From an uncultured Sulfuricurvum sp. (GTDB lineage: Bacteria > Campylobacterota > Campylobacteria > Campylobacterales > Sulfurimonadaceae): DNA of 64,000 nt. Every line of letters starts with the position of its first letter. Positions within the stretch are counted from its first letter, which is position 1. A program made the position numbers and the translations under genes. Below, in pieces: positions 37,956 to 42,723 of the stretch. The stretch lies in NCBI GenBank assembly GCA_903844635.1, contig CAIMUF010000038.1, forward strand, positions 1 to 64,000, given 5' to 3'. Below the pieces are notes generated by a model that was not told the origin of the DNA, did not search any database, and saw only the letters and a list, made by a program, of their open reading frames with translations.

Positions 37956-38999
37956 ATGAAAAAAATTCTACTTTCTGCATTTTTAGCTGCTGCACTGGGT
38001 GCCAGTGAATACAATTATGAAGTTAGTGCGATGGGTGGAGAAGCCTCTTCAAACAACACTCAAGAGCTTAAAGACCATGATGTTTATGGAGCAGAAATCC
38101 AATTTAATGACTTTGATACAGCATTAAAGCCCGAATTGTCCATTTACTATAGTAATGGTGATTACAATGGGAGAAATGGGGATACTAATATTTTCAGAAC
38201 TGCTCTTAATGGTGTTTATGAATTTGAAAAAAGCAATACAATTACCCCTTTTATAAAAGTGGGGGCCGGTTATGAGACGATGAGCTACCATCAGTACGAT
38301 AACCATAACAGTGCGTTTGCTGATGCAGGAGCAGGAGTAAAAATCGCTCTTATAGATCAACTCGCTCTCAAACTTGAAGTAATTGATATGCTCAAGTTTA
38401 ACAATTTTAACTGGGATAATAATCTACTTCTCATGGCTGGTCTCAATTTCGCTTTTGGTGAAAAAGTACAGCCTGCGGTACCTGTAGTAACTCCAGTTGC
38501 AGCACCTGTCGTGCAAGAAGAGCCAAAACCAAAACTTACGCCAGTGATTGCAGCTCCTGCCGTTACGTGTCCGATTGATAGTGATAAAGATGGCGTATTT
38601 GATCCTCAAGACAAATGCCAAAATACACCTTCCGGTTTCAAAGTAGATGGAGATGGCTGTCCGTTAACTGCAACACTTAATATAAACTTCGCAACGGATT
38701 CAAATTCAGTAGATGAGGCAGGAGCAGACAAAATCTCTGAATTTGCTGCATTTATGAAAGAAAGTCCTGCTTACCAAGCAAATATCATAGGGCATACAGA
38801 TGCTACCGGTTCAACGGCTTACAATCAAAAACTTTCAGAAAAACGTGCTGCGATCATTAAAGATATTCTTATTAAAGAGGGTGTTGAAGCAAATCGTTTA
38901 ACGACATCAGGCAAAGGTGAAATGTGTCCTGTATCTTCCAATACAACCCCGCAAGGTCGTACAGAAAACCGTCGTATCGAAGTAGAACTTAGTCACTAA
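37956..38999 (+). CDS. OmpA family protein (paralog of preceding gene)
   Basis: Same architecture; IGHTDATGSTAYNQKLSEKRA. Confidence 0.93.
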   Translation: MKKILLSAFLAAALGASEYNYEVSAMGGEASSNNTQELKDHDVYGAEIQFNDFDTALKPELSIYYSNGDYNGRNGDTNIFRTALNGVYEFEKSNTITPFIKVGAGYETMSYHQYDNHNSAFADAGAGVKIALIDQLALKLEVIDMLKFNNFNWDNNLLLMAGLNFAFGEKVQPAVPVVTPVAAPVVQEEPKPKLTPVIAAPAVTCPIDSDKDGVFDPQDKCQNTPSGFKVDGDGCPLTATLNINFATDSNSVDEAGADKISEFAAFMKESPAYQANIIGHTDATGSTAYNQKLSEKRAAIIKDILIKEGVEANRLTTSGKGEMCPVSSNTTPQGRTENRRIEVELSH

Positions 39000-39017: not shown

Positions 39018-39057
39018 AATATTCCCACTTTAATGGGAATATTAAAGTGGGAATATT
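39018..39057. terminator. Bidirectional terminator, perfect 17-bp stem
   Basis: AATATTCCCACTTTAAT-GGGAAT-ATTAAAGTGGGAATATT between convergent ompA-like gene and msrA. Confidence 0.8.
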
Positions 39058-39064
39058 AAACTTT

Positions 39065-39598
39065 TTATTTTTTAACTTTATTAGCAAATTTCATCACAAA
39101 TTTTTCAATCTTCGGGGCAATAACTGCGTAACAATATCCTTGTGTCGGGTGCTCACTATAGTAATTTTGATGATACGCTTCTGCTTCGAAAAATTCGGGA
39201 ACAGCAGAAAGTTCCGTAATGATTTTCCCCTCAAAGTTTTTTTGCGCTTCAGTTATAGAGTCTATCGCTTTGGCTTTTTGCTCTTCATTATAATAATAGA
39301 TCACAGAACGATATTGCGTCCCACGATCTGCCCCTTGAGCATTGAGTGTGGTTGGATCATGAATAGCCCAAAAAATATCTAAAATTGCTTCATAACTTAG
39401 TATTTCTGCATCAAAAGTTACCTCAATGACCTCAGCATGCCCGCTAACTCCTGTACACACCTGCTCATAGCTAGGGTTAGCTCGTAATCCGCCTGCATAA
39501 CCACTAATAGCTCGTTCAACACCCTCAACGCGATTGTAAACCGCTTCTATGCACCAAAAACATCCACCGCCCAACAAGGCTTTTTCTAAGGTTGCCAC
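39065..39598 (-). CDS. msrA: Peptide-methionine (S)-S-oxide reductase
   Basis: GGCFWCIEAVYNRVEGVERAISGYAGG. Confidence 0.96.
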   Translation of the reverse strand: MATLEKALLGGGCFWCIEAVYNRVEGVERAISGYAGGLRANPSYEQVCTGVSGHAEVIEVTFDAEILSYEAILDIFWAIHDPTTLNAQGADRGTQYRSVIYYYNEEQKAKAIDSITEAQKNFEGKIITELSAVPEFFEAEAYHQNYYSEHPTQGYCYAVIAPKIEKFVMKFANKVKK

Positions 39599-39767: not shown

Positions 39768-39873
39768 CTTTTCTTTGCTCATAAAGAGCAAGCTTCATTT
39801 TTCATCCCTCAATTCATTTCTCCTTTATTAACATCCCTATGGCATACTATGGTAAAAAGAAAAAAGGTTTTTG

Positions 39874-40539
39874 ATGCTCTATGCTTTGATGATCGAGGAT
39901 GATCCTGACATTACTACCCTTCTGGTCAACTATCTCAAAAAGTACGATATTATCGTAACGGCTGCATCGACACCGTCTACCGGACTTACCTTGCTCGATA
40001 GCAATGATTTTAATCTCGTTATATTGGATTTGACACTTCCTCAAATGGATGGGTTAGAAGTGTGTAAACTTATCCGTGCCAAAACTGACATTCCTATCAT
40101 CATTTCAAGCGCGCGAAGTGACATCAATGATAAAGTAATCGGACTGCAATTTGGTGCAGATGATTATCTGCCAAAGCCCTATGAACCTAAAGAACTTATT
40201 GCGCGGATAAAAAGTGTTCTACGACGGTACCATCCAGCAGTAGCGAAAAAAAACACCCTCTTCGTCTTACATCAAGCAGAACAAATCATTTTACATAATA
40301 ACGTTTCTCTCTCTTTAACACGAGCCGAATATGATATTCTTTCACTCTTTTTACTCCATGCTAATCAGACTCTCAGTCGCGATTTTCTTTCCGATAATTC
40401 TGAAGCCATATCGGATGAGAGCTCTACCCGAAGCATCGATGTCATTATCAGACGTCTTCGTCAAAAAATCGAATCAGATCCAAAAAATCCTCGCTATATT
40501 CACTCTATACGCGGCAGCGGATACCGGTTTTCAGGATAA
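39874..40539 (+). CDS. OmpR-type response regulator
   Basis: REC domain (MIEDDPDI, LVILDLTLPQMDG, PKPYEPKELIARI) and winged helix (RSIDVIIRRLRQKIE...IRGSGYRF). Confidence 0.93.
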   Translation: MLYALMIEDDPDITTLLVNYLKKYDIIVTAASTPSTGLTLLDSNDFNLVILDLTLPQMDGLEVCKLIRAKTDIPIIISSARSDINDKVIGLQFGADDYLPKPYEPKELIARIKSVLRRYHPAVAKKNTLFVLHQAEQIILHNNVSLSLTRAEYDILSLFLLHANQTLSRDFLSDNSEAISDESSTRSIDVIIRRLRQKIESDPKNPRYIHSIRGSGYRFSG

Positions 40540-40542
40540 TAT

Positions 40543-41783
40543 ATGGGGCATAGTATTTTTCTAAAAATAACTCTATTTTTCCTTATTACCTTTATCGCAA
40601 TGGGAATCGGATTTAATGCTCTCTCTAATCAGCTGAATCGTGACTATGACCAACGATTGCAAAGTGAAGCGAAAGCGCTACTTTTGTTACTTCGAGAAAG
40701 TATTTTTTTACCTGCACCGATGCGAAAAACATTTTTAGTCGAACACGGCTATGAAGTTACAACACCATCTCCTAAACTCATCAATACATTACAAAACGCT
40801 TTTACCCTGATCCCTAAAAACTATCCTGAAGAGATACAAGATTCGCTGAAAGAGGGACGTATACGGATACTCAAAGATGAGTATAATCTTTATGTATATC
40901 TTACTAAAGCCACGCCACCTCTCCTTGCAATCAAATCAGGTGTTGCAGAAAAAACATTTTGGTCGGAAGCTATCTTCGTCATTCTTCTCTTTTCTCTTTT
41001 ACTTTTTTATCTGCTGATTATCAAAACCCTATTTCCTCTAAAAAAGCTTATTTACACCATCGAACAATACGGAAAAGAGGGAGAATATAGACCGATCAAA
41101 ACTCTAAAAAAGACGAAATTGCACAAGTTTCGAATGCTCTGGATGCAGCAATGCATAAAAATAAATCTCTCATGGAAGCAAGGCGCCTCTTTTTACGTAA
41201 CATCATGCATGAACTCAAAACACCGATCACGGTGGGGAAGCTCTCCTTGCCATTTTTGAAAAAAGGAGAAGAAAAATCCATTCTTGAGCGGGCATTTTTT
41301 CGGATGGAGCATCTGATTCAAGAACTCGTACGCGTCGAGCAAATTACATCAGGTATGATCGCACCTGAACCTAAAGAGTGCGATCCTATCTCGCTAATTC
41401 ATAAAGCTGCCAGTCTGCTCTTTATTGAGATCGATACATTGGAAATTACCAGCGATGGAGGCTTAATTGAAGTTGATTGTGATGTTTTTGTCACTGTTTT
41501 TAAAAATTTCATCGATAATGCACTTAAATACAGCCCTGATAACAAAATCCGAATAGTCCATGAAAAAGGGACAATCACCTTTATAAATCGTGGTGATCCT
41601 TGGCCTGATGGCCGCACTTTAGAATCTTTGACGGAACCTTTTTCACAAAATCAGTCAACCCAGCAAGGATTTGGATTAGGGCTTTATATTATCAAGTCGA
41701 TTCTGGATGCTCATTCTTTGTATTTGTCGCATCAATTTGTTTCTGGGGAACATTTTTTCTCCGTTCATTTTCAGCGCGATTGA
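40543..41783 (+). CDS. Sensor histidine kinase (ArsS-like) split by apparent -1 frameshift at 41106-41112
   Basis: ORF 40543-41259 has TM and HAMP-like region; ORF 41151-41783 has HisKA (LFLRNIMHELKTPITVGKLS) and HATPase (GFGLGLYIIKSIL); joined in -1 frame at AAAAAAG. Confidence 0.8.
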
Positions 41784-42723
41784 GGCGAATTTCGAAACAC
41801 GCACCCATTACGGTGTTGTGAACACTAAGCTTTCCTAAAAAATGTTTCTCTACAATCATTTTTGCCATATACAGACCAATCCCCGTCCCTTGAGACTCAA
41901 ACTTGGTTGTAAAATAAGGATCAAATATTTTATCGATGATATATAACGGTACACCGCCACCAGTGTCTTCAATCGAAATCGTACAAAAACGACTATTATG
42001 TTCACAGGAAATACGAATCTCTCTTTTTGTATTTTTACTCTGTTCAATCGCTTCACGCGCATTATTGACAAGATTGATTAATACTTGCTTGAGTTCGTTT
42101 GGATAGACTAAAACGGTTATAGAAGGATCAATATCTCGAATAACGGTAATTTTTTTGCGTTCCAACAATGGACCAAGCAGTGTTTCCACTTCACCAACAA
42201 TATGATTAATATTTACCTTGCTTTGAACTCGGTCTTGTTTAAAAAAGTTCCTAAAATCATCAATAGTTTGAGACATGTACTGTATTTGCTGCTCAACAAT
42301 TTCGATTGTCTTTTCCATATCTTCTATACGACCAAAACTGCAACCAAGGCTCAGCTTTGTCATTGAGAGTCCCAAAATATTGAGTGGCTGCCTCCACTGG
42401 TGAGCAATGGATTCGACCATTGAACCAATTTCTGCCATTTTCGCTTGCTGCATTAAAATTTTTTCTTGAGTACGATTTTTTTCTACTGCTTTTTCAATTT
42501 CATCTTGGAGACGCTGATTGAAAGCTTCCAGCTCCTTCGTACGCCGAAGGACCAACTCATCAAGTCGACGATTTTTATACGCGATACTGAGTAAAATTGT
42601 TGCAAAAATCACGGCAGCCATTATAAAAAATGGAGCACTAGAAATATAATCAACACGTGAAGACAATTCTTTTGACCATAAACAACTATCAAAAATAATA
42701 AGTAATAGCAGTAATTTTTTCAT
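41692..42723 (-). CDS. Membrane sensor histidine kinase
   Basis: MAEIGSMVESIAHQWRQPLNILGLS; NELKQVLINLVNNAREAI; GTGIGLYMAKMIVE. Confidence 0.9.
   Translation of the reverse strand: MKKLLLLLIIFDSCLWSKELSSRVDYISSAPFFIMAAVIFATILLSIAYKNRRLDELVLRRTKELEAFNQRLQDEIEKAVEKNRTQEKILMQQAKMAEIGSMVESIAHQWRQPLNILGLSMTKLSLGCSFGRIEDMEKTIEIVEQQIQYMSQTIDDFRNFFKQDRVQSKVNINHIVGEVETLLGPLLERKKITVIRDIDPSITVLVYPNELKQVLINLVNNAREAIEQSKNTKREIRISCEHNSRFCTISIEDTGGGVPLYIIDKIFDPYFTTKFESQGTGIGLYMAKMIVEKHFLGKLSVHNTVMGACFEIRLNRAENERRKNVPQKQIDATNTKNEHPEST

Follow-up and report, generated by a model that had tools for sequence, protein, structure and literature searches.

An ArsS-family histidine kinase gene split at A_AAA_AAG in an uncultured Sulfuricurvum: very probably the loss of one A rather than programmed frameshifting

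Within the window—the whole stretch of 64,000 nucleotides of DNA from an uncultured Sulfuricurvum that was analysed here—a histidine kinase gene is divided between two reading frames at A_AAA_AAG, the slippery heptamer of Escherichia coli dnaX. This raises the question of whether programmed -1 ribosomal frameshifting at the motif yields a sensor-only protein together with a full kinase, which was the leading reading of the initial annotation, or whether the gene has lost one base from a homopolymer run, through true deletion or assembly error, which that annotation offered as an alternative.

The sequence AACTCTAAAAAAGACGAAAT, read directly, occupies positions 41100-41119 and holds a run of six A residues (41106-41111) followed by G at 41112. 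Counting codons from the ATG at 40543 makes 41106 a third base, so that the 0-frame reads CTA AAA AAG ACG, with the heptamer (41106..41112, forward strand) in the correct frame for -1 slippage. The ORF that starts there (40543..41259, forward strand, 238 aa) encodes the 5' half of the kinase, a membrane sensor, and past the A run is out of frame, ending in an unrelated tail of ~48-49 residues that matched no Pfam family; without a slip, the product would be a truncated sensor with a non-kinase tail, as first described. The 3' half (41091..41783, forward strand) lies in the -1 frame, which is open from 41091 and has its first internal ATG at 41151, giving a 210-aa ORF (41151-41783). This half encodes the end of the linker and the HisKA and HATPase domains (Pfam HisKA and HATPase_c), and the catalytic motifs are present in it: MHELKTP, the HisKA motif that carries the phospho-acceptor histidine, NFIDNALKY and GFGLGLYI. 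Sequence and ORF coordinates confirm the place of the split and the two ORFs given in the initial annotation.

These ORFs certainly belong together as the halves of a single ArsS-family histidine kinase, a sensor kinase of acid-response type. A -1 slip joins the sensor to HisKA and HATPase, again as originally proposed, in a product of 413 aa that scores 302.4 bits against NCBIfam NF038389 (ArsS_fam_HK; cut-off 250 bits) over model positions 1-402 of 403. Scored separately, both halves fall below the cut-off: the 5' half, at 45.5 bits, matches just the first part of the model and the 3' half, at 243.9 bits, matches the remainder. The gene thus resembles the family in the score of its read-through product and in lying downstream of an OmpR-type response regulator gene; it differs in being split by one base, so that no single ORF passes the cut-off and the full-length score belongs to the read-through product only, which no single uninterrupted frame in this genome encodes. 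The regulator gene, directly upstream of the kinase (39871..40539, forward strand, 222 aa), is intact, with Pfam Response_reg and Trans_reg_C domains, and its product is the putative partner of the kinase. At the other end, the kinase ORF converges with an opposite-strand histidine kinase ORF (41692-42723), their 3' ends overlapping by ~92 nt (41692-41783).

Seventeen orthologs were fetched from other Sulfuricurvum genomes (54-89% identity), and every one is a single uninterrupted frame of 400-420 aa (0/17 split). The nearest by kinase-gene sequence, L009 from genome G019 (89%), reads CTA AAA AAA GAT, with seven A residues, where the window reads CTA AAA AAG AC, with six; the second-nearest, L010 from genome G036 (87%), reads CTA AAA AGA GAT. 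Both are 413 aa long, which matches the -1 read-through product exactly. At this site the remaining orthologs show a free mixture of codons (e.g. CGA AAA, CAA AAA, AAT AAA, AGC CGG), followed by a conserved Asp-Glu. Because all 17 relatives have the gene intact, the split points either to an ordinary mutation of recent date or to a sequence error, not to programmed frameshifting, which is left unsupported by close relatives with intact single frames in which the combination of heptamer and split is not conserved. The initial annotation had proposed just such an alignment, and had named this pattern as one that would tell against programming; its alternative of a one-nucleotide homopolymer lesion is borne out by the 17 intact orthologs and by the seven As of the nearest.

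There remains the heptamer, which, given a stimulator, ranks with the most slippery in E. coli (PMC4066793) and at which a -1 slip gives a complete ArsS-family kinase. Taking one A from CTA AAA AAA GAC leaves CTA AAA AAG AC, so a single event creates both the split and the dnaX-type heptamer, and the motif carries no independent weight. The heptamer had been called ideal, and its sequence and phase are indeed correct, but it is an automatic by-product of the change from A7 to A6. The motif is also ordinary in this genome: a sample of 340 genes holds 31 in-frame copies of A_AAA_AAG, spread over 28 genes, and AAAAAAG was counted 65 times on both strands of the window, against 38 expected from shuffles. 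A second in-frame copy in the same gene (41040..41046, forward strand), 66 nt upstream of the lesion heptamer, serves as a control and is unsplit, and ortholog L022 has the same heptamer in the same codons (CGA AAA AAG GAT) with its frame intact.

Neither a downstream structure nor an upstream SD-like stimulator was found at a working distance from the heptamer. The AGGGAG at 41078-41083 and the stem at 41114-41132 are present, and are as far from ideal as the initial annotation judged them. A gap of 22 nt separates the SD-like AGGGAG from the heptamer, too great a distance for it to serve, and the stem is a weak 7-bp hairpin (CGAAATT/AGTTTCG, forward strand; -5.5 kcal/mol, z = -0.73) within a protein-coding stretch; folding of longer segments gave z-scores of -0.08 and -0.40, no structure beyond that of shuffled sequence. 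In E. coli dnaX, the intact frame gives the long product and slippage shortens it (see also PMC1088944). The window gene shares with dnaX the same heptamer in the same phase; it differs in that slippage would be required for the long product, and in that its site has neither stimulators at a working distance nor conservation. On ortholog conservation, control heptamers and folding, we reject programmed frameshifting, to which we attach next to no probability.

Accidental recoding is a separate matter. Low-level -1 slippage at the new A_AAA_AAG might yield this strain a little full-length kinase alongside an abundance of truncated sensor, an outcome we consider improbable. Frameshift-prone heptamers without stimulators reach 2.1 to 10 times a background of 0.055% in E. 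coli (PMC4066793), a ceiling that also counts against programming, and at no more than about ten times that background useful synthesis of full-length kinase is unlikely. If it did occur, this would be an accidental, unconserved recoding site softening a fresh frameshift. Transcriptional slippage at the A6 run, restoring some full-length mRNA, has a slimmer chance still: poly-A runs can rescue disrupted bacterial frames, but in many genomes signs of selection against slippage emerge only once a run reaches about nine A or T (PMC1088944), and programmed transcriptional slippage is quoted for An with n > 7 (PMC3711429), against n = 6 here.

A tract toggling between A6 and A7 within the population, and so turning the kinase alternately on and off, would likewise produce a lesion of a single unit in a homopolymer run. 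Slipped-strand mispairing is a known cause of phase variation in related Campylobacterota, as for Helicobacter pylori sabA (PMC2715451), although a search of that paper for a homopolymer tract in the arsS gene of H. pylori, which would have been a closer precedent, found none. Six or seven As are, however, short for a contingency tract. Nor is the tract long, conserved or length-variable: there are six As here, seven in the nearest ortholog and no conserved tract in most of the others, as their site codons attest. The suggestion that the lesion is phase-variation-like is thus not supported, and we rate such switching very unlikely.

We conclude that, with high probability, an ordinary ArsS-family kinase gene has lost one A from an A7 run in this lineage alone, either recently or in the assembly only. 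Slipped-strand loss of one A within the run would shift the frame, so that normal translation would yield a shortened membrane sensor lacking the kinase core, and the HisKA/HATPase half would be left untranslated or be internally started. With the two halves aligned separately, the 5' half gave dN/dS values (Nei-Gojobori) of 0.13 and 0.18 against the two nearest orthologs, and the 3' half values of 0.13 and 0.09; no second frame lesion was found in the gene and no old decay in either half. As both halves are under purifying selection, any real lesion must be recent, and low dN/dS, a single lesion and the presence of the catalytic motifs together indicate that the kinase gene was functional until recently, or still is. 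Singleton frameshifted genes have been classed as recent indels or sequencing errors (PMC3711429), and the window gene is like them in bearing a frameshift that no ortholog shares, in having both halves validated by homologs and in carrying an A run at the site, with no notable difference.

If the fault lies in assembly or sequencing, the kinase is intact in the organism, with A7 at the site, and one A has been lost from the assembled consensus. Purifying selection on both halves of a gene free of other lesions favours this, and singleton frameshifts backed by database matches are commonly errors (PMC3711429); set against it is the soundness of the other genes compared. Over 33 kb syntenic with contig C13 of G036, 39 ORFs (10,578 aa) are intact and the kinase is the sole split gene. 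In a larger comparison, made in both directions, the window's genome, represented by most of contig C74, most of contig C38 (the window is its start) and parts of C21 and C18, was set against the stretches fetched from this close relative: 253-259 genes (85,000-87,000 codons) proved intact across 90% or more of their length, and the kinase was the only clear two-frame split among ~255-260 genes, the few other partial matches including none with halves in different frames. Scans at identity floors of 60 and 70% recovered the kinase as a positive control; a floor of 80% misses it (its 5' half is 77% identical). With a single clear frame split in ~260 genes, the assembly is not generally rich in homopolymer errors, and we reject general homopolymer damage, which slightly favours a real recent deletion over an isolated assembly error. 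That the base is truly missing from the organism we accordingly put at somewhat better than even, with an error of assembly or sequencing a substantial but lesser prospect.

Loss of one A from an ordinary gene has one observation counted against it, namely that the lesion falls inside a locally divergent stretch and so in a possible recombinant import or chimera. Identity to G036 is ~95% on both flanks and drops to 75-88% over ~40500-41400, where, in most bins, G036 and G019 are closer to each other than either is to the window. This pattern suggests that the sensor segment may be imported, recombinant or fast-changing in the window's lineage, or that the assembly may hold a strain chimera.

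Other differences from the relatives were observed away from the kinase. At 39022-39060, in the interval between one ORF ending at 38999 and another ending at 39065, the window carries a 14-base insertion that both relatives lack; it resembles a tandem duplication (GGGAATATTAAAGT) and sits beside an inverted copy, and the feature is probably a terminator hairpin. The product of L078 (G000:C74:203653-205089) corresponds, at 95%, to just residues 1-479 of a G036 protein of 629 aa and stops there, a possible truncation or insertion junction. The ORF at C74:198006-198866 is intact in the window's genome and lies in two frames in G036 (C16 near 212786-213389).

For annotation, the two ORFs are best merged into a single ArsS-family kinase gene marked as frameshifted, rather than listed as a candidate for recoding, and the split has little import beyond that. 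It does carry a caution: where a Lys-Lys pair AAA AAA stands before G, the deletion of a single A automatically makes a perfect A_AAA_AAG, so the presence of this motif at a fresh frameshift does not count as evidence of programming.
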